Assembly (NCBI RefSeq): GCF_014202505.1
Contig: NZ_JACHGW010000001.1
Span: forward strand, 372,001-436,000
DNA: 64,000 nucleotides
From: Armatimonas rosea
GTDB taxonomy: Bacteria > Armatimonadota > Armatimonadia > Armatimonadales > Armatimonadaceae
Direction: 5' to 3'
Every line of letters starts with the position of its first letter. The first letter of the stretch is position 1. Shown one piece after another: positions 342 through 9,465 of this stretch. A program made the position numbers and the translations under genes. A model generated the notes under the pieces. The model worked only from the letters and a program-made list of their open reading frames with translations. It made no database searches and was not told where the DNA came from.

Positions 342-1190
342 TCAGCGCACCATGGTCCCGATACCCGTGTCGGTGAAGAGCTCGATCAGCAGCGCATGGG
401 CACGGCGACCGTCGATGATGTGTGCCCGCGGCACGCCGTCCTCGACTGCGCTTGCGCACGCCTCCAGCTTGGGGATCATCCCCTTGTCCACGATGCCGTC
501 GGCGATCCACTGCCGCGCCTCACTAGCTGTGAGCTCGCTCACTAGGCTGCTCTTGTCCGAGAAGTCCCGGTAGAGGCCCTCGACATCGGTCATCAGGATC
601 AGCTTCTCCGCATGGAGCGCCGCCGCCAGCGCCGCCGCGGCCGTGTCCGCGTTGACGTTGTACGCCTGCCCATCCGCGCCCACCGCCACCGATGAGATCA
701 CCGGGATGTAGCCGCCGTTGGTGAGCGTGTGGATAATCTCCGGGTTCACGTGCGCGATCTTGCCCACAAATCCGATATCGCCGTTGTCGGTGTCCTTGGT
801 GGCGATCAGCAGGTTCGCATCCTTCCCGGAAAGCCCGACCGCCTGCACCCCCTCGCCGTTGAGATGCGCGACAATGCTCTTGTTGGTCTTGCCCGTCAGC
901 ACCATCTCCACGATCTCCATGGTCTCCGCATCGGTCACGCGCCGCCCCGCGACAAACTCCGGCTCCTTGCCCAGCTTCTTCATCGCCTCGTTGATCTCCG
1001 GCCCGCCGCCGTGCACGAGGATCGGGTTGATCCCGACCAGGCGCATCAGCACCAAGTCGCGCATCACCGCTTTCTTCAGCTCCTCGTCGATCATGGCATT
1101 GCCGCCGTACTTGATCACGATCGTCTTCCCGGCAAAGATCCGGATATAAGGCAGCGCCTGAATCAACGTCGCCGCAATCTGCTCTGGCAT
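342..1190 (-). CDS. argB: acetylglutamate kinase
   Basis: ArgB phosphorylates N-acetyl-L-glutamate with ATP, the second step of arginine synthesis, in the cytoplasm. The 282-residue product has the amino acid kinase signatures KYGGNA (27-32) and HGGGPEI (from 60), the glycine-rich nucleotide and substrate loops of the family, and is full length. I use ATG at 1190; a TTG at 1193 is also possible, and AGGAG about 9 bases upstream serves either. It lies downstream of argC and argJ on the same strand but is separated from them by three unrelated genes, so it may have its own promoter in the roughly 100-bp gap after the ankyrin gene. Confidence 0.95.
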   Translation of the reverse strand: MPEQIAATLIQALPYIRIFAGKTIVIKYGGNAMIDEELKKAVMRDLVLMRLVGINPILVHGGGPEINEAMKKLGKEPEFVAGRRVTDAETMEIVEMVLTGKTNKSIVAHLNGEGVQAVGLSGKDANLLIATKDTDNGDIGFVGKIAHVNPEIIHTLTNGGYIPVISSVAVGADGQAYNVNADTAAAALAAALHAEKLILMTDVEGLYRDFSDKSSLVSELTASEARQWIADGIVDKGMIPKLEACASAVEDGVPRAHIIDGRRAHALLIELFTDTGIGTMVR

Positions 1191-1257
1191 CAAACATTTC
1201 TCCTACCGCCCAATGAATTGGGCGTCTGAAATTCAAACAAAGCCCATTCGGGCTATC

Positions 1258-1389
1258 TCTCCACGTCTAGAGACCTTTTCCCCACAAGACTTTAGCTACT
1301 CTCCAGGCTTGGAGAGAGAGTCTCCAGACAAGGAAAGGCTCTCTCCATGCGAAGAGAGAAACTCTCCAAATGTTGAGGGAATGTCTCCA
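1258..1389. repeat. 21-bp tandem repeat spanning the 3' end of the ankyrin gene
   Basis: The hexamer TCTCCA (once TCCCCA) recurs at 1258, 1279, 1300, 1321, 1342, 1363 and 1384, an exact 21-bp period over seven units; the intervening bases are only loosely conserved. On the minus strand the units encode a heptad G-[DE]-x-x-S-x-x at the carboxy end of the ankyrin protein. The TAG at 1296-1298 falls inside the array, and two to three more units lie beyond it in the same open frame, to a TGA at 1233-1235. Confidence 0.85.
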
Positions 1390-2384
1390 TTGGTTCTTTG
1401 ATACTCTCTCACAAACGCAATGAGGTCTCCACGCCAAGGATCAGTTCCCTGAAGCCACTCAATTAAAATTTCGCAACTGTCAGGTGGATACGGAATCTCT
1501 GCCCCATGATCGAGTAAACAGGCAACAACATCCCCAGAGGCATAGTGTGCTATAGCCTCCCAAAGTGGCGTTGAGTCGTACTCAGTTTTGACATTGATAT
1601 CCGCTCCATGTTTAATAAGGGCTTCAATCACTTCTGTAAAATTATCTTCGTAGATGGCATTATGAAGTGGTGCCAACCCTTCCGTTTTTCCATTGGGATC
1701 AGCCCCAAGTTCAACAAGTAAATCCACCATGACAGCACTCCTAGCTCGCCATAGTGGATTTCGTTGCCCACTGATACTCGCTCCCCAATGGTGAAGCAAA
1801 CGAACCATATCCAGATCATCGTTTTCAACAGCAACCGTTATCGGGAAGCGTCCGTGCCAATCCCACTGATTGACATCGCCTATAATTCTCTCCTGAAGTA
1901 ACCGCTCGACTATCGTTCGGTCACGGCGGGAAACAGCAAAGGTCATCCAGGTATATTTATCGCCCTCTTTGCGCACCGTTTTCATAAACTCGTTAAAGCT
2001 AGAAGAGATTACCACTCTGGCGTAGAGCTGCTGCCCATCCTGAATACCTTCTAGTAGAGCTTGTACTCTTTCCTGAACCGGCTCTGAGACATCAGGATGT
2101 TCCAGGATTATGTTGCCCAAAAATCGGGCGCGATAGAAATTCCCTGCATGAAGCCAGCAGTGAATGGCGCTGAAGGCATGCGTGAAATACTCCGATGCGA
2201 AATTTGCATCTTTACATTCCTGCATGAATTCCTCTTCCATGCCTGCCACTTCGGCATAGAGATCTGCTGCTTGATCGTGTTTTTCCTGTTCCCAGAGCTG
2301 GCGTGCCTCAAGCAAGACGTGACTTTTTCGTACCAGCCTTCGGCGGTACTCCTTCGGTCTTACTCTTGTGGTCGCCCCTTTCAT
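1296..2384 (-). CDS. ankyrin-repeat protein with heptad-repeat tail
   Basis: The 362-residue product starts MKGATTRVRPKEYRR, five bases past the DUF1501 stop. Residues about 1-150 are helical and unrecognised. From about 165 come ankyrin-type units with hallmarks such as VNQWDWHGRFPITVAVEN, LDMVRLLHHWGA, LVELGADPN, LAPLHNAI and LIKHGADINVK. The last 30 residues are heptads GDIPSTF, GEFLSSH, GESLSLS, GDSLSKP. Ankyrin units bind proteins; no target is visible. GC (near 50%) is well below the flanking genes, suggesting acquisition. The TAG stop lies inside the 21-bp repeat array, so the tail length is probably variable. A longer upstream open frame is an overlap with the DUF1501 gene and not the real start. 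Confidence 0.85.
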   Translation of the reverse strand: MKGATTRVRPKEYRRRLVRKSHVLLEARQLWEQEKHDQAADLYAEVAGMEEEFMQECKDANFASEYFTHAFSAIHCWLHAGNFYRARFLGNIILEHPDVSEPVQERVQALLEGIQDGQQLYARVVISSSFNEFMKTVRKEGDKYTWMTFAVSRRDRTIVERLLQERIIGDVNQWDWHGRFPITVAVENDDLDMVRLLHHWGASISGQRNPLWRARSAVMVDLLVELGADPNGKTEGLAPLHNAIYEDNFTEVIEALIKHGADINVKTEYDSTPLWEAIAHYASGDVVACLLDHGAEIPYPPDSCEILIEWLQGTDPWRGDLIAFVREYQRTNGDIPSTFGEFLSSHGESLSLSGDSLSKPGE

Positions 2385-2386
2385 AG

Positions 2387-3805
2387 CTAGGCGAGAATCT
2401 CCTTGATGGGCTGGCCGTGGTCGATTTCGAGGCGCTTTCTTCCGGGCACTTCGAGCTTTCGGGAGTCGAGGCCGAGCTGATGAAGCACGGTGGCGTGGAT
2501 GTCGGTGAGGTAGTGGGGGTTCTCGACCGCGTAGAAGCCGAGCTCGTCGGTGGCGCCGTGGGTGATCCCGCCTTTCACGCCGCCGCCCGCCAGCCAGGCG
2601 CAGAAGCCTTGGGGATGGTGGTCGCGGCCCGTGCCCTCGGCGCCGGGGGTACGCCCGAACTCGGTGCCAAAGACCACGAGGGTTTCGTCGAGCAGGCCGC
2701 GCCGCTTGAGGTCCTTGAGCAGGCCCGCGATGGGCTTGTCTACTTGTGCTGCGAGAGTCGTGTGGTTGCCCTTCACGTCGCTGTGCGCGTCCCAGGCCCC
2801 GCCGCCGCCGCCGCCGTGGAAGAGCTGGACAAACCGGACGCCGCGCTCGACCAGCCGCCGGGCCGCGAGGCACTGCTCGCCGAAGGCTTTCGTGTGTGGC
2901 TGATCGAGTCCGTAGAGCGCCTTGGTCTCCGCCGACTCTTTTTCGAGCTGGAGGGTCTCAGGGACGGAGGTCTGCATCTGGAACGCTAATTCGTAGGCCT
3001 TGATCCGCGCCTGGAGGTCCTTGTCGTCGGGGTAGTCGATTCCCGCGAGGCGGTTGAGGCGGCCCATGAGCGAGAAGTTCGCCGCTTGCTCTTCGGCAGT
3101 CAAGTTATCGGCGGGCTTGAGGAAGGGCAGGGGCTTCTTGGGGTCGGCGCTGAGCTTGACACCGGCGTACTGCGGCCCAAGATACGCCGCGCCGTGGGTC
3201 CAGGCGCCGCCACAGCAGTCGCCGGTCGGGCTGCCTAAGACGACATACTCGGGCAGGTTCTCGTTCAGCGTGCCGAGGCCGTAGCAGGCCCAGGAGCCGA
3301 CAGTTGGGTGCGCACCCTCGCGGACATGGCGGCCCGTCTGGAAGGTGAGCTGCGCTCCGTGGTCGTTGTCGAGTGTCCAGAGCGAGCGAACCACGGCCAG
3401 GTCGTCGGCGCAGGTCCCGATATTCGTGAACCAGTCGCCCACCTCCAGCCCGCACTGGCCGTACTTCTTGTAGCCCGTCTGGAGCGGCATGATGGTCTTG
3501 CGGTTGCCATGGTTGGGGTTGCCGCCCACAATATTGGCATTGACCCGCTTGGGATCGAGCACGGCCTTGTAGGGGGTCTCCTCGATAGACTTGCCCGCGT
3601 ACTTATTGAGCTCCGGCTTGATATCGAAGCTCTCCAGGTGGCTGACCCCGCCGCACAGAAAGATCCAGATCACCGACTTGGCGCGCGGCGGCCGCCCCGA
3701 CGCCCCCCGGTCGATCTGCTTCTTCCAGGCGTCGCGTTGCAGCAGCGCCCCGAGCGCCAGGCCCGTCATGCCCATTCCGGTATCTGAGAGTGATGATCGT
3801 CGCAT
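2387..3805 (-). CDS. DUF1501 family secreted protein
   Basis: The 472-residue product has the features of DUF1501, a sulfatase/phosphatase-fold family of unknown substrate: an amino-terminal export-type segment (MRRSSLSDTGMGMTGLALGA), the motif IWIFLCGGVSHLESFDIKP near 47-65, RHVREGAHPTVGSW in the middle, and EFGRTPGAEGTGRDHHP toward the end, where Asp and His would ligate metal. The signal lacks a clear hydrophobic run after a twin arginine, so export route is uncertain. It follows the DUF1549/DUF1553 gene by four bases, the pairing usual in planctomycetes and relatives, where the two products are thought to act together outside the cytoplasm. Confidence 0.92.
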   Translation of the reverse strand: MRRSSLSDTGMGMTGLALGALLQRDAWKKQIDRGASGRPPRAKSVIWIFLCGGVSHLESFDIKPELNKYAGKSIEETPYKAVLDPKRVNANIVGGNPNHGNRKTIMPLQTGYKKYGQCGLEVGDWFTNIGTCADDLAVVRSLWTLDNDHGAQLTFQTGRHVREGAHPTVGSWACYGLGTLNENLPEYVVLGSPTGDCCGGAWTHGAAYLGPQYAGVKLSADPKKPLPFLKPADNLTAEEQAANFSLMGRLNRLAGIDYPDDKDLQARIKAYELAFQMQTSVPETLQLEKESAETKALYGLDQPHTKAFGEQCLAARRLVERGVRFVQLFHGGGGGGAWDAHSDVKGNHTTLAAQVDKPIAGLLKDLKRRGLLDETLVVFGTEFGRTPGAEGTGRDHHPQGFCAWLAGGGVKGGITHGATDELGFYAVENPHYLTDIHATVLHQLGLDSRKLEVPGRKRLEIDHGQPIKEILA

Positions 3806-3809
3806 CTGC

Positions 3810-6575
3810 TTACCTCACCGTCACGAAGTCGTTGTGATTGAAGAGAACCAGCACCAGGTTCTCGTAGCGTCGCTGAAGGCTGGCCTCGCCCCCGGCCGCG
3901 AGGAAGCGCAAGCACTCCTGAGCCTCGGTGGTCGTGGGGGGGCGAGAGAGAATCCGCTCGAAGGCGTTCTTGATAAACACCGGCGCGTTGGATAACCTCT
4001 CCCCTAGCCCCTCTCCCGCACCCAGAGGGTACCCGTCGTTCCTCACTGGGAAAGGGGAACCCGATTCTGGCTCCCCTCTCTTCCCCAGTGAGGTACGAAC
4101 GCCCGGGGGAGGGAGGGGCTGGGGGTGGGAGAGGTTAAATGCCAGCGCCCGTGCTTCCCGCAGGGCCAGCTCACTGTTGGCGAGGGCGAGCGCTTGCTGG
4201 GGCATGACCGATGGCTTGCGCTCGTAGCACTCCGTCACGCTGGGGCCATCGAAGATCTGCATCAGCTCGGACTGTTTCTCGGCAGCGTTTCGGAGGTAGA
4301 GGCTCCGGCGCTGCGAGGTCAGGGCAGCGTTTTGGTCGATCTCAGCCCCCCCTCGTGTTTCATCGAGGTGCCCGGCGGCAAAGAGCACGTTGTCGCGGAC
4401 GGCCTCGGCCTCGAGACGAAGGGGGCTCTTGCGCCAGAGGTAGAGGTTGTCGGGGTCGCGCTTGAGGTTCTCAGGCGTGGCGCGGCTGTCGCGCTGGTAG
4501 GCGGTGCTGGTGAGAATCAGCTTGTGGAGTGCCTTGAGATCCCAGCCGCTGGCCATGAACCGGTCCGCGAGATAGTCGAGGAGCTGTGGGTGGGTGGGCT
4601 TGCGGCCATTGCGGCCAAAGTCGGCGACACTGGGGACCAGCGCCTGCCCGAAGTGCCGCAGCCAGACATGGTTGACCGCCACTCGCGCTGTCAGTGGGTT
4701 CTGCTTATCGGTCAGCCAGCGTGCCAGCGCCAGGCGCCGCCCCGAGCTCTCCGCAGGGTAGGCCGTGAAGCGCGGCGTGTAGTTGCTATTTAGTGGCTGC
4801 TTGAGCGCTGCCTCGGCGGTGTCGAGCGCTTTCTGTGCCTCCGGGCGCTTCTTCGCCTCGGCGGCCAGCAGGTTCTTGCGTGCCTCGGCGACAGCCACCT
4901 CGCGCTGGGCTTGGACCGTCAGCTCGGCGGCGGCCTTGGTGCTTGTGGTCTCCACTTCTAAGATCGCCAGGAGCGCCTTGTGCTTTGCCTGCGCCAGCGC
5001 GACCTCGGCATCGGCGAGGGGGCTGGGCTTGGCGGCCTGCGCCCGAAACGCGGCCAGGAGCGCGGCGTTGCTAGCATTGAGTAGATCGCGCTGGACAAAC
5101 TCCCGGCGGTCCGGTGTGACAGCGGCGGCGGGCAAGGCCACGGGCTGGATCACGAGCTTGCCTCCCAGTGCCTCCGGGACACCCGGCTCCAGCGCCTTTG
5201 ACTTATCCGGGTTGCGCTCATCGCCGCGAACAAAGAGATAGGTCGGCGCTTTCAGGTCGGCGTCGTAGACCCGTGGGAGGCCGTCTTTGGTCGTGTCTAG
5301 CTCGCCGGGCACGCGGTCTTGCCGGACCTGGTGCGGCTCGAAGATCGCTCGGAACCGGTAGTAGTCGGTCTGGGGGATGGGATCGTACATGTGAGAGTGG
5401 CACTTGGCGCAGTGCATCGTGATCCCCAGGAACGCCTTTGAGGTGTGATTGACCGTGTCCTCCAGCCACTGTTCCCGGCTGAGGAGCTTGTAGTTGCGCG
5501 CCAGAAAGCCCGTGGCACGGAGCGCTTGCGGGTCGCCGGGGGCCAGCTCATCGGCGGCGAGCATCTCCTGGACCATCCTGTCGTAGCCCTTGTTGGCGTT
5601 GAGTGACTCGACAATCCAGTCCCGCCAGCGCCAGATATGCGGCTGGCTGTCGCGAATCTGCCCGCCATCGGCCCAGCCCGCCCAGTCCGAGTACCGCCAG
5701 ACATCCATAAAGTGCCGCCCCCAGCGCTCGCCATACCGCGGCGAGGCCAGCAGGCGCTCCACGGCTTTCTCGTAGGCATCGGGCGACTTGTCCGCCAGAA
5801 ACGCCTCAATCTCCTTCGGAGTTGGCACGAGCCCCGTTATATCCAGCGTCGCCCGCCGCAGGAGGGTTCGCTTATCGGCAGGCGGCTGGACAGCCAGCCC
5901 GCGCTTCTGCTGCTCGACAGCTAGGAAGGCATCGATGGGGTTTTGAGAACCTCTCCCTGAGTAACCTCTCCCCAACCCCTCTCCCGGGCGCTCATTCCGG
6001 GTGCCCTCAGGGCGTGGGAAAGGGGCTTTCAGAACCCCCTTCCCCAACGAGCTTGCGAGTGCCCGGGGGAGGGGGCAGGGGGAGAGGTTACTCAGGTTCG
6101 GCACCGCAGGCGCGACGACACTCTCAAAGGGCTGCCACCGGTACTCGCTACGAAACGCGGTGAAGGTGGGCTTGAGCTTCGCTAGGCCAGACAGCTCGCT
6201 CGCCGTGGGCTTATCTTTAGCATCGCCGGGGTTGTGGCCTAGCAGGAGCTCGGCCTCGTTGGCGACTCCGTCTCCATCGCTGTCCTCGCCCGCGATCTTC
6301 TCCAGCCGCCGCCCGAGGTCCGCGCGCTGGCCGGACTTCTTCAGCACCGCCGCGACTGCCTTGAGGCGTGCGCCAAACGGGTTGTGGGGGAACTCGTCGA
6401 GCGTCACGCCGGGCTTTGCCCCCGGAGCGCTCTGGTGGCAGGTCGAGCAGGTGTCGAGGCGTGCGGATAGGAACCGCCCGTAGCGCACGCCCAGTGCCGC
6501 CTTGTTTGCCGGTGTCGCCAGGGCGCTTGCCCCGCCCAGTGCCGTTATCGCTGCAACCAGAATCGCTCGCTTCAT
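3810..6575 (-). CDS. cytochrome c / DUF1549 / DUF1553 protein with two in-frame palindromic elements
   Basis: Start is ATG 6575 (MKRAILVAAITALGG, a signal peptide), giving 921 residues. A c-type haem motif CSTCH lies at 43-47 with a following calcium-loop-like segment (EDSDGDGVANEAELLLG), then DUF1549 (NPIDAFLAVEQQKRG, ERWGRHFMDVWRYSDW, and CAKCHSH, a second CxxCH) and DUF1553 (LTARVAVNHVWLRHFG, GWDLKALHKLILTSTAYQRDS, PQQALALANSELA). The family is exported and its reaction is unknown. Two palindromic elements of about 140 bp lie inside the gene, at 5956-6096 before DUF1549 and 3993-4137 near the carboxy end. Both are translated in the same frame as Pro/Gly-rich inserts starting NLS and ending GEGLG plus a few residues. 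The flanking domains are intact, so the protein is probably functional. Confidence 0.92.
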   Translation of the reverse strand: MKRAILVAAITALGGASALATPANKAALGVRYGRFLSARLDTCSTCHQSAPGAKPGVTLDEFPHNPFGARLKAVAAVLKKSGQRADLGRRLEKIAGEDSDGDGVANEAELLLGHNPGDAKDKPTASELSGLAKLKPTFTAFRSEYRWQPFESVVAPAVPNLSNLSPCPLPRALASSLGKGVLKAPFPRPEGTRNERPGEGLGRGYSGRGSQNPIDAFLAVEQQKRGLAVQPPADKRTLLRRATLDITGLVPTPKEIEAFLADKSPDAYEKAVERLLASPRYGERWGRHFMDVWRYSDWAGWADGGQIRDSQPHIWRWRDWIVESLNANKGYDRMVQEMLAADELAPGDPQALRATGFLARNYKLLSREQWLEDTVNHTSKAFLGITMHCAKCHSHMYDPIPQTDYYRFRAIFEPHQVRQDRVPGELDTTKDGLPRVYDADLKAPTYLFVRGDERNPDKSKALEPGVPEALGGKLVIQPVALPAAAVTPDRREFVQRDLLNASNAALLAAFRAQAAKPSPLADAEVALAQAKHKALLAILEVETTSTKAAAELTVQAQREVAVAEARKNLLAAEAKKRPEAQKALDTAEAALKQPLNSNYTPRFTAYPAESSGRRLALARWLTDKQNPLTARVAVNHVWLRHFGQALVPSVADFGRNGRKPTHPQLLDYLADRFMASGWDLKALHKLILTSTAYQRDSRATPENLKRDPDNLYLWRKSPLRLEAEAVRDNVLFAAGHLDETRGGAEIDQNAALTSQRRSLYLRNAAEKQSELMQIFDGPSVTECYERKPSVMPQQALALANSELALREARALAFNLSHPQPLPPPGVRTSLGKRGEPESGSPFPVRNDGYPLGAGEGLGERLSNAPVFIKNAFERILSRPPTTTEAQECLRFLAAGGEASLQRRYENLVLVLFNHNDFVTVR
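3993..4137. repeat. palindromic element, family A, copy 1 (inside CDS)
   Basis: The ends are an 11-bp inverted repeat, TAACCTCTCCC on the left and its complement on the right. The interior holds CTCTCCCG/CGGGGGAG arms and a core with TGGGAAAGGGGA and TCCCCAGTGAGGTACGAACGCC. It lies within the DUF1553 domain of the gene on the minus strand and is translated without stops. Confidence 0.9.
5956..6096. repeat. palindromic element, family A, copy 2 (inside CDS)
   Basis: A terminal inverted repeat of at least 16 bp (CCTGAGTAACCTCTCC and complement) bounds a core like that of the other two family A copies (CCCTCTCCCGGGC, GGGAAAGGGG, GAGCTTGCGAGTGCCCGGG reversed). It is translated in frame in the DUF1549 gene between the amino-terminal cytochrome part and DUF1549. 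Confidence 0.9.
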
Positions 6576-6589
6576 TGCCTCTATCCTTC

Positions 6590-6713
6590 TAACCTCTCCC
6601 CCTGCCCCTCTCCCGGGCACTCGCAAGCTCGTTGGGAAAGGGGAGCCTGAATCTCCCTCCTTTCCCAGTGAGGTACGAACGCCCGGGAGAGGAGGGCAGG
6701 GGAGGAGAGGTTA
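6590..6713. repeat. palindromic element, family A, copy 3 (between argJ and the DUF1549 gene)
   Basis: Terminal TAACCTCTCCCC and its complement flank a core with CTCTCCCGGGCACTCGCAAG, GGGAAAGGGGAGCC and CAGTGAGGTACGAACGCCC, shared with copies 1 and 2. It fills the entire gap between the argJ stop and the downstream start. The TAA that ends argJ is the first three bases of the element read on the minus strand. Confidence 0.9.
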
Positions 6714-7874
6714 CGTCGTATACTCCGCATTGATTTTGACATACTCGTAGGAAAAGTCACAGGTGTAGAACGTCGCTTTGCCGTCGCCTGCGCCCAGATC
6801 CACGGTCACGAGGACTTCATCGGTCTTCATCGCCTCCGACGCGGCGGCTTTGTCGAAGGCGGCGGGGACGCCGTTTTTGAAGACCTCAATGCCCGCCAGC
6901 GTCGCCGAGGCGCGCTCGGGGTCGAAGGGGACGCCCGCGCGGCCGGCGGCCATCATCAGGCGGCCCCAGTTCGGGTCGTTGCCAAAGAGGGCGGTCTTGA
7001 CGAGCGGCGACTCCGCAATCGTGCGCCCCACTTTCTTGGCATCGGCCTCGCTCGGCGCACCTGTCACGCGCACTTCGACCAGCTTGGTTGCCCCCTCGCC
7101 ATCGCGCGCCACTTTCTTAGCGAGCGTCACACAGACCTCGGAGAGGGCGGCGACAAAGGCCTCAAACTCGGAGCCCGAGAGGGGCGTATTGCCCGCCGCG
7201 CCCGAGGCCAGCAGGATGCACTGGTCACTGGTCGAGGTGTCGCCATCCACCGTCATGCAGTTAAAGCTCACGTCCACCGCGCGGCGCAGGGCGGTGTCGA
7301 GCCGCTCTGGCTCCAGCGTGATGTCGGTGGTGACAAAGGCCAGCATGGTCGCCATGTTGGGGGCGATCATCCCGCTTCCCTTGCACGCACCACCGATCCG
7401 CACGGTCGTGCCGCCCAGGGTGAGCTCGGTCTGTGCAGTCTTGGGCACCAGGTCGGTCGTCATGATCGCCTCGGCGAAGTCGGCGCTGGCATCCTCCGAG
7501 AGCGCGGCCTCGGCGGCGGCGATTCCCGCGAGGAGCTTGGCCTGGGGAAGCTGGACACCGATCACGCCCGTGCTGGCGGTGAGCAGGGTCTTGCCCGCCA
7601 GTGCCGCGCCCATCTGCTCATTGTTGGCGACCCCCTCAGGGCCAGTGGCGACATTGGCGCATCCCGCGTTCACCACGACTCCATCGATCCGCCCCGGCAC
7701 GAGCCCTCGGTTGCGCTTCACCGACGGTGCACAGACCTGGTTTAGGGTCCCCACCATCGCCGCCGCCGCCGGCCCGCTGATCGAGACAAGCAGCGCCACA
7801 TCTCTTGCGCCGCTCTTCTTGATCCCCGCCACGACTCCCGCGCAGGCAAAACCCTTTGCAAACGTTACGGCCAC
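6711..7874 (-). CDS. argJ: bifunctional glutamate N-acetyltransferase / amino-acid acetyltransferase
   Basis: ArgJ moves the acetyl group from N-acetylornithine to glutamate, closing the acetyl cycle of arginine synthesis; bifunctional forms also use acetyl-CoA. The 387-residue product carries the self-cleavage motif NMAT-ML with the Ala175-Thr176 bond expected to be cut, preceded by GGACKGSGMIAP, and the conserved VDGDTSTSD and GNDPNWGR motifs. Start is GTG 7874, which overlaps the argC stop by 10 bases and has GGAGG 6 bases upstream; longer open frame upstream is only the argC region in another frame. The stop codon is supplied by the family A element. No argA is seen, which fits an ArgJ-type cycle. 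Confidence 0.95.
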   Translation of the reverse strand: MAVTFAKGFACAGVVAGIKKSGARDVALLVSISGPAAAAMVGTLNQVCAPSVKRNRGLVPGRIDGVVVNAGCANVATGPEGVANNEQMGAALAGKTLLTASTGVIGVQLPQAKLLAGIAAAEAALSEDASADFAEAIMTTDLVPKTAQTELTLGGTTVRIGGACKGSGMIAPNMATMLAFVTTDITLEPERLDTALRRAVDVSFNCMTVDGDTSTSDQCILLASGAAGNTPLSGSEFEAFVAALSEVCVTLAKKVARDGEGATKLVEVRVTGAPSEADAKKVGRTIAESPLVKTALFGNDPNWGRLMMAAGRAGVPFDPERASATLAGIEVFKNGVPAAFDKAAASEAMKTDEVLVTVDLGAGDGKATFYTCDFSYEYVKINAEYTT

Positions 7875-8872
7875 AGACCGCCTCCTTCGAGCCCGGCGGT
7901 TTCGTCGAAGCCGAGCATGATGTTCATATTGTGGATCGCCTGCCCCGCCGCGCCCTTGACGAGGTTGTCGATCACGGAAACGACAATGGCTTGCTCGCCC
8001 GTGCTCGCCACCGCGAGATGGCAGAAGTTCGAGCCTGCCACGTCCTTGGTCGAGGGCCAGTCGCCCGGCTCCCGCACGACCACAAACGGCGCGTCGGCAT
8101 AGAACTGCTTCAGTGTCTCGGTGAGCTCGGCGGCACTGGCGTTGGTGGAGCCGTAGCACGTCGCCAAAATTCCGCGGGTCATGGGCACCAGATGCGGCGT
8201 GAAGAGCACGCTCGCTCCGATATTCTGCGCGATCTCGGGCGTGTGTCGGTGGCCGCCACCCACGGCGTAGGGCCGGACGGTCTCGTTCATCTCGGCGTAG
8301 CGGTAGATCGTGTCAGACTTGGAGCGGCCTGCGCCACTCACCCCGGACTTGGCGTCGATGATAATTCCTGACAGCCCGTGATGCTTGACCAGCGGCGCGA
8401 GCGCGAGGCTACTGGCTGTGACATAGCACCCCGGATTGGCAATGAGTCGCGCACTGGCGATCTTCTCTTTTCCGACTAGCTCGGGCATTCCGTAGACGGC
8501 TTGCGCCAGGAGCTCCGGGGCGGCGGGGGGCATCTTGTAGAACTTTTCCCAGGCCGCCGTATCCGTCAGCCGGAAGTCTGCAGACAGGTCGATCACGCGC
8601 TTGCCTGCCGCCAGAAGCGCCCCGGCGACCGTCATGGCGTAGCCGTTTTCTTGGGCCAGAAAGACTACGTCTGCCGTAATCTCCCCGCCTTTTTTCTCGC
8701 AGATCAGCGCACCCAGCTTGGTTCCCGCAAGCCCCGGAAACGCGCTGGCGAGGGGCTTGCCTGCCGAGCTATCGGAGATCACTTGTGTCACCTCGACACC
8801 GGGATGCCGCGCGAGGAGCCGCGCCAGCTCCCCGCCGCCGTATCCTGTCACACCAACGATTGCTACTGTCAT
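7865..8872 (-). CDS. argC: N-acetyl-gamma-glutamyl-phosphate reductase
   Basis: ArgC reduces N-acetylglutamyl phosphate to the semialdehyde with NADPH, the third step to arginine. The 335-residue product begins MTVAIVGVTGYGGGELARLL (Rossmann glycine motif, 7-14) and has the active-site Cys149 in NPGCYVTAS, plus HRHTPEIAQNIG and HLVPMTRGI typical of the family. It is the first structural gene of argC-argJ and lies about 185 bases downstream of the leader terminator, with a palindromic element between, so it should be controlled by the attenuator at 9058-9247. Confidence 0.96.
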   Translation of the reverse strand: MTVAIVGVTGYGGGELARLLARHPGVEVTQVISDSSAGKPLASAFPGLAGTKLGALICEKKGGEITADVVFLAQENGYAMTVAGALLAAGKRVIDLSADFRLTDTAAWEKFYKMPPAAPELLAQAVYGMPELVGKEKIASARLIANPGCYVTASSLALAPLVKHHGLSGIIIDAKSGVSGAGRSKSDTIYRYAEMNETVRPYAVGGGHRHTPEIAQNIGASVLFTPHLVPMTRGILATCYGSTNASAAELTETLKQFYADAPFVVVREPGDWPSTKDVAGSNFCHLAVASTGEQAIVVSVIDNLVKGAAGQAIHNMNIMLGFDETAGLEGGGLWP

Positions 8873-8885
8873 ACTTTCCTCACTT

Positions 8886-9052
8886 CCTGCCCGTTGGAGG
8901 GGCGGGACTGCAGAGCGTCGCAGGCTCCGCTACAAAGGCCGTTCCGGCCATATAAATTCCGTATGCCCGGAACGGGCTTTGTAGCCATAGGCTCTCCAGC
9001 CTCCCCCCTCTAACGGGGGAGGGCTCCCGTCCGGCCGTTCTAATCGGCTGGA
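8886..9052. repeat. composite palindromic element between arg leader and argC
   Basis: The stretch holds CCCGTTGGAGGGGCGGG, an inner hairpin GGCCGTTCCGGCCAT...GCCCGGAACGGGC, CTTTGTAGCCATAGGCTCTCCAG, then CCCCCTCTAACGGGGGAGGG and GGCCGTTCTAATCGGC. The inner core AAAGGCC-TTCCGGCCAT and the GTAGCCATAGGCTCTCCAG part recur at 27535-27668. Boundaries are approximate. No gene is visible in it. Confidence 0.7.
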
Positions 9053-9057
9053 CAAAC

Positions 9058-9088
9058 AAAAAAGGCCGCCAGGGTTTCCCCTGCGGCC
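9058..9088 (-). terminator. intrinsic terminator of the arginine leader
   Basis: On the minus strand the arm GGCCGCAGGG (9088-9079), a GAAA loop and the arm CCCTGGCGGCC form a 10-bp hairpin with one bulged base, followed at once by six T. It sits between the leader peptide and argC, as expected for an attenuator. Confidence 0.85.
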
Positions 9089-9181
9089 ACGCCAAACACA
9101 ATTTATTGATGCACTCTCCACACGTAGCCGCTCCCCAGAAAGGTCACTCCCTTCCGGTCACGGTTCGCGTTTTTGAAGCGC

Positions 9182-9241
9182 CTAGCCCGTGACCTCGGAG
9201 GGACGACGGACGCGGCGACGGCTGATCTGAGTTTTTTGCAT
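9182..9241 (-). CDS. arginine-rich leader peptide (19 aa)
   Basis: Minus-strand ATG at 9241 to TAG at 9182-9184 encodes MQKTQISRRRVRRPSEVTG. Five of residues 8-13 are Arg, read by codons CGT, CGC, CGC, CGT and CGT. No Shine-Dalgarno sequence is seen; the start is only about 6 bases from the predicted transcription start, so initiation would be nearly leaderless. It is located upstream of argC and argJ, and the stop codon overlaps the first leader hairpin. Chance occurrence of a short Arg run in GC-rich DNA is the main alternative, but promoter, hairpins and terminator around it argue against that. Confidence 0.7.
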   Translation of the reverse strand: MQKTQISRRRVRRPSEVTG

Positions 9242-9254
9242 CGCTTAGGTCAAA

Positions 9255-9283
9255 AGTATAGGCCAAAGAAAATCGGCTGTCAA
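9255..9283 (-). promoter_or_regulatory. sigma70-type promoter for the arg leader and argCJ
   Basis: On the minus strand TTGACA (9283-9278) and TATACT (9260-9255) are separated by exactly 17 bases. This is the best consensus promoter in the window. Start of transcription is expected near 9247, just ahead of the leader ATG at 9241. Confidence 0.85.
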
Positions 9284-9297
9284 GTCTTTGGGCTCGC

Positions 9298-9456
9298 CCC
9301 TATTTAGACCGCCCCCGTTGGAGGGGGGCGTCTTACTGTCCTCGTTCCTCGGACACAAAGGCCTTCGGCCATACCAAATTATGGGCAGAGCCCTTCGTAT
9401 CGGAGCCTGCGACGATAGCAAGACGCCCCCCTCCAACGGGGGCGACTAAATAGGGA
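9298..9456. repeat. palindromic element, family B, copy 1
   Basis: CCCTATTTAG at the left edge and its complement at the right enclose long arms, CGCCCCCGTTGGAGGGGGG at 9310 and the complement near 9445. The core has TCCTCGTTCCTCGGACACAAAGGCC-like sequence split over 9339-9363, then AATTATGGG and TCGGAGCCTGCGACGA. The element abuts the 3' end of the S41 protease gene and lies behind the arg promoter. Confidence 0.9.
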
Positions 9457-9465
9457 CGGTCTAAC

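Follow-up and report, generated by a model that had tools for sequence, protein, structure and literature searches.

Amino-acid attenuators are known from textbooks for the trp, his, leu, ilv, thr and phe genes, and for arginine biosynthesis ArgR or T-boxes are the regulators usually named. A 2005 survey of Actinobacteria reported no arginine attenuator (PMC1262725), and a 2010 survey, which states that leader peptides were at that time known in Proteobacteria and Actinobacteria only, did not mention an arginine case (PMC2965389). We found no Arg-codon transcription attenuator of an arg biosynthetic operon in the open-access papers searched, subscription journals being outside this scope, and arginine-codon attenuation of such an operon is thus provisionally new to the literature. 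Here we describe a candidate of this kind upstream of argC in Armatimonas rosea (Armatimonadota), within a 64,000-nucleotide (nt) stretch of its genome, referred to as the window. On the evidence of comparative sequence analysis and folding models, the region is very probably a ribosome-mediated transcription attenuator of the trp/his type, which would sense charged arginyl-tRNA and control argC-argJ; through it, a shortage of arginine would probably be sensed by ribosomes and turn on the arginine-making genes.

Consistently with the trp/his type, the leader combines clustered codons for the pathway product, an intrinsic terminator before argC and a mutually exclusive antiterminator (Table 1). 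Five Arg codons lie within six codons of the leader open reading frame (ORF), and segments C and D can form a 9-bp pairing which excludes the terminator, since D overlaps the terminator 5' arm. In folding, the Arg codons, as long as they are free of a ribosome, can themselves pair with C; the stretch CGTGACCG (9162-9155), which overlaps segment B, can also pair with C, with one mismatch. The whole leader folds 3.4 standard deviations better than its shuffles. A strict consensus terminator scanner misses the terminator because its stem contains a bulged G. In a consensus scan, TTGACA-17-TATACT was the sole promoter-like site in 700 bp, with 0.1 expected from shuffles, and transcription is predicted to start at about 9247-9249. 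The promoter, 19-codon ORF, 8-bp hairpin, 9-bp pairing, GC-rich terminator with its T6 and argC-argJ had all been proposed in a first-pass annotation of this DNA, and re-analysis reproduced every coordinate and sequence.

Table 1 The argC leader and the genes behind it. Coordinates are positions within the 64,000-nt window; all parts of the leader and argC/argJ lie on the minus strand.
Feature	Sequence or product	Position	Strand	Basis
-35 hexamer	TTGACA	9278..9283	minus	sequence, consensus scan; kept in sister species
-10 hexamer	TATACT, 17-nt spacer from -35	9255..9260	minus	sequence, consensus scan
Leader ORF	MQKTQISRRRVRRPSEVTG*, 19 codons	9182..9241	minus	sequence; counterpart in sister species
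Control codons	CGT CGC CGC GTC CGT CGT (Arg Arg Arg Val Arg Arg; RRRVRR)	9203..9220	minus	sequence, folding; Arg cluster retained in relatives
Segment A	GGTCACGG, final codons ahead of stop	9187..9194	minus	sequence, folding
Segment B	CCGTGACC	9156..9163	minus	sequence, folding; partner of segment A (8-bp hairpin)
Segment C	GCGGCTACG, antiterminator 5' strand	9123..9131	minus	C:D pairing compared with shuffles
Segment D	CGTGGCCGC, antiterminator 3' strand, overlaps terminator 5' arm	9083..9091	minus	pairing, folding
Intrinsic terminator stem-loop	GGCCGCAGGG-GAAA-CCCTGGCGGCC	9064..9088	minus	-20.9 kcal/mol fold
Terminator U-tract	T6	9058..9063	minus	sequence
argC	N-acetyl-gamma-glutamyl-phosphate reductase	7865..8872	minus	TIGR01850, 390 bits (cut-off 233.6)
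ORF holding argJ	bifunctional	6711..8159	minus	NF003802, TIGR00120

The arrangement suggests the following switch, in which both the ribosome stalling and the arginine response are inferred. When charged Arg-tRNA is scarce, the ribosome would stall on the Arg codons, segments A and B would pair and C would be left free to form C:D, which would occupy the terminator 5' arm and allow RNA polymerase to continue into argC. With ample arginine, the ribosome would advance to the stop codon and mask segment A, whereupon B or the uncovered Arg codons would capture C, D would pair with the terminator 3' arm and transcription would stop before argC. Because the Arg codons themselves can pair with C, termination would also be the default without translation.

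The leader is not isolated but recurs across much of Armatimonadota. It precedes argC in the sister species and in almost every relative from the same family and order, and is also present in several further families. In the sister species, whose argC is 97% identical, the leader peptide reads MQITQTYRRRVRRPFEVTG, and the Arg codons, segments A to D and the terminator stem are nearly identical, while adjacent bases differ; the -35 hexamer is conserved, and the 9-bp antiterminator of the first-pass annotation is retained amid altered flanks. Other genera of the family carry ...ALRRRLRRPQ..., ...ERRVRRQQ..., ...FRRLRRSR..., ...TRRVRRTS... and ...ERRRIRRLR..., with ...QPRRPQ... as one weak case, the second family of the order carries SLRRRVRAFG, PLRRRVRVLG, SPRRRVRALG, NVRRERRPV and GLRRRERRL, and more distant families have either RRRRE leaders (including a Chthonomonas metagenome-assembled genome) or RARR-stop leaders. 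The Arg codons and a downstream terminator are kept at argC while the remaining residues of the peptide vary; a comparison of relatives, which the annotation had named as a possible refutation, has thus turned out in favour of its interpretation.

Moreover, the Arg codons stood out in a blind screen for a TTGACA-type promoter before argC, followed soon downstream by an ORF of 8-45 codons with three identical residues in six codons. In a stricter version, Arg was the repeated residue in 26 of 110 argC regions and the next residue, Ala, in 6; no Arg leader was found on the opposite strand of the 110 regions, nor in any of 52 argG, carA and argH regions from that order. A wider screen, with more genomes and slightly looser limits, returned Arg in 42/135 genomes, Ala in 9, each of these also an Arg match, and no other residue more often, counts which are not independent because the genomes are related. 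The Arg matches cover eleven families, some of which, such as f32, may be chance. By the screen, an Arg leader with its promoter stands before argC in 7/8 genomes of the window's family; in the second family of the order the figure is 6/7, and elsewhere the positives cover whole families (f21, 8/8; f26, 4/4; f11, 3/3). Without the promoter, the Arg-cluster pattern gave 29 matches in the window's own genome and 38 in the control and is therefore uninformative. Among 80 argC loci of a wider outgroup, mostly Proteobacteria and Firmicutes, there were five Arg matches, one of which (L203, Chthonomonas) is the real leader, while the other four look like chance. Eleven further genomic occurrences of the RARR-stop motif, not located at argC, were examined, and none resembled a leader.

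Pairing was tested by dinucleotide shuffles rather than by formal covariation counting, because MAFFT alignments were too gappy or too uniform. Complementarity between the strand next to the Arg codons and the terminator 5' arm exceeded that of shuffles, with a combined p of 2e-10 over 14 genera. For the C:D pairing itself the excess was significant in the window's genome (G000, p = 0.046) and in G001 (p = 0.016), and the combined value over five genomes of the window's family (p = 0.006) is modest next to the sister families. In family f2, and likewise in much of f9/f24, pairing with the terminator 5' arm involves the strand directly after the Arg codons (for example GCCCACG/CGUGGGC), and in the folding model a ribosome at the stop codon would cover this strand; the f2 helix also shows a compensatory change, from A-U in GGGAAAUG/CAUUUCCC (G018) to G-C in GGGAAGUG/CGCUUCCC (G013). 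Several of these leaders have two terminators, of which the first can pair, by its 3' arm, with the 5' arm of the second (combined p = 0.001), and we therefore propose that stalling could disarm both. In another genome (L108, G049), a hairpin resembling a terminator has the Arg codons CGC AGG AGG AGA within its 5' arm, about 100 bp before argC; this may be a direct-block variant or a chance occurrence.

The folding models, which are approximate, were used to ask what ribosome position would do to these pairings. Full-equilibrium terminator probabilities were barely discriminating because the terminators are very stable, and were replaced by folding of transcripts that end before the terminator 3' arm. 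When the model gave the ribosome a footprint of 28 nt, ended the transcript within the terminator loop and left the Arg codons free to re-pair behind the ribosome, the window leader was predicted to switch: the probability of C:D was 0.21-0.99 with the A site on the Arg codons and 0.00-0.21 with the A site anywhere from Pro14 to the stop, and without a ribosome it was 0.00, with the Arg codons paired to C at 0.87. The same pattern was noisier in the sister species. A simpler model, which considers only the RNA downstream of the ribosome, predicted a switch in about half of the leaders, and a fuller folding statistic over 17 leaders gave p = 0.0008. Thus, the interpretation of the region as an Arg-codon attenuator, put forward in the first-pass annotation, draws comparative support from the recurrence of the leader and from pairing beyond shuffles, together with the switch predicted by the footprint model.

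Several observations weigh against this interpretation. Many families of the phylum are without the leader, and within the window's own family one member (G003) has just two adjacent Arg codons. In the simpler, downstream-only model, no significant switch was obtained for the window's family except in G010. Finally, at full equilibrium the terminator wins in many leaders even with a stalled ribosome, and the switch therefore requires the antiterminator to form first during transcription.

An arginine- or ornithine-dependent arrest by the nascent peptide, as with SpeFL, TnaC or the fungal arginine attenuator peptide, in which the peptide itself would stall the ribosome in response to high arginine, finds its best ground in the order of f21. 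There the leader has a nearly fixed RARR-stop ending (CGCGCCAGGCGnTAG), in many cases preceded by LWP. The Arg codons thus abut the stop codon, and sensing peptides typically arrest the ribosome close to a stop codon. In leaders outside f21, the Arg run (RRRVRR, RRRRERR, RRERR, RPRRE) is the sole part retained, whereas an arrest peptide would be expected to keep further residues; beyond the sensor codons no peptide conservation was seen in f1, f2 and f9, and RARR-stop and LWP are partly conserved in f21. The conservation of RARR may partly serve a self-complementary RNA (GCGCC/GGCGC), and a constraint on codons and complementary RNA fits attenuation by tRNA charging better than arrest, which we regard as improbable.

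The terminator might instead be set by a T-box, a riboswitch or a bound protein (for example ArgR-like or PyrR-like), the ORF being incidental, as would suit a long, structured leader with alternative pairings; Arg T-boxes are known for arginine genes elsewhere, as cited in PMC1262725. Nevertheless, Rfam models (T-box, riboswitch) had no match at the gathering threshold in the window or in the loci of 20 relatives, ArgR was not detected in any leader genome, and the Arg codons persist though the RNA architecture varies between clades, all of which count against this very doubtful explanation. A constitutive terminator behind a chance Arg-rich ORF might be invoked in a GC-rich genome, where CGN codons are common and Ala clusters also appear, at low frequency; yet Arg outnumbers any other residue (42/135 against at most 9), the stricter screen is empty on the opposite strand and in the 52 control genes, and the antiterminator complementarity (p = 2e-10) points the same way. 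This last explanation is exceedingly unlikely and is already contradicted by the comparative sequence data.

The regulatory context of the Arg-codon attenuator was explored with the ArgR model TIGR01529, which was positive in the Escherichia coli and Bacillus subtilis controls. ArgR was undetected in 148 of 151 genomes, including that of the window and all leader genomes, and the matches in the remaining three were all below the curated cut-off. These three ArgR-like matches (G083, G123 and G075) all belong to family f14, where they lie about 2-3 kb from argC and where no leader was found.

Elsewhere in the window's genome (G000:C8:134187-134400, locus L371), a near-leaderless trp leader, MQTREQIVQWWWRTGACPVRATS (QWWW), is followed by a terminator and then by trpE, and forms a classical trp attenuator, an internal sign that leader-peptide attenuation is in use in this genome. 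The argC leader ORF would likewise be near-leaderless if transcription starts at the usual 6-8 nt past the -10 box, its start codon being 13 nt downstream of that box and no Shine-Dalgarno sequence being seen. The annotation had counted this start as an added novelty, a view that we do not maintain because such spacing is common in the genome and present in the trp leader: 34 TTGACA promoters lie 5-15 nt before an ATG, versus 3 for the reversed pattern, which suggests many leaderless or near-leaderless transcripts.

Downstream, the ArgJ match begins at residue 97 of its ORF, and the true argJ start therefore lies further downstream than the ORF start. The gap between terminator and argC is about 190 bp in the window and contains palindromic repeats; in the sister species the terminator T run is only 27 bp upstream of argC, so that the repeat element between terminator and argC, at least, looks inserted. 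Related palindromic elements (CCCGTTGGAGGGG... and ACAAAGGCC...) occur to either side of the argC leader (8890-9030 and 9295-9458), and complementarity between their arms reaches 91%. Within 342-6626, argB is found some 5.5 kb further downstream than argJ, with a PSCyt2/PSD1 protein and a DUF1501 protein as well as an ankyrin-repeat ORF encoded in between, and the arg cluster of the window is apparently broken up.

With the attenuator at argC, arginine would join the list of attenuation-regulated biosyntheses, and, in an almost ArgR-less phylum, an RNA switch seems to replace a repressor that was lost or never acquired. We see about even chances that a large part of this phylum controls its arginine synthesis mainly by Arg-codon attenuation, with at least two architectures: an RRRxRR/RRRRE type, with an A:B/C:D versus B:C/D:E switch and, in some families, tandem terminators; and a RARR-stop type, which has a GGCAU/AUGCC hairpin resembling an antiterminator and may work partly by peptide arrest. 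Families with and without the leader form a comparative series on the origin of attenuators and on change in their architecture, and the locus suggests that near-leaderless leader peptides can serve attenuation.

Like the classical trp, his, leu, ilv, thr and phe attenuators, the argC leader has a short ORF rich in product codons, mutually exclusive helices and an intrinsic terminator before a biosynthetic operon; unlike them, it has arginine as its signal, argC as its target, another phylum as its host and a near-leaderless start, with tandem terminators in sister families. The speF leader of enterobacteria (orf34/SpeFL) also senses arginine by ribosome pausing at Arg codons of a leader ORF, but its target is ornithine decarboxylase rather than arginine biosynthesis, and it acts through Rho, sequestration of the ribosome-binding site and RNase G, with no intrinsic-terminator switch (PMC6386406). 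In Staphylococcus aureus, the Arg-codon leader ORF rbfL senses arginine limitation as well, but with rare AGA/AGG codons and by blocking translation initiation of the biofilm regulator rbf, without transcription attenuation (PMC13009471). Arg T-boxes, as cited in PMC1262725, share with our leader the sensing of tRNA-Arg charging and the control of arginine genes, but bind the tRNA directly, without a leader peptide, and have no match at the argC leader. The cysS leader candidate uORFC-8-2 is likewise a computational find with a tandem-codon leader ORF, alternative stems and a terminator, but differs in concerning cysteine, a tRNA synthetase gene and Rhodobacterales (PMC8632094).
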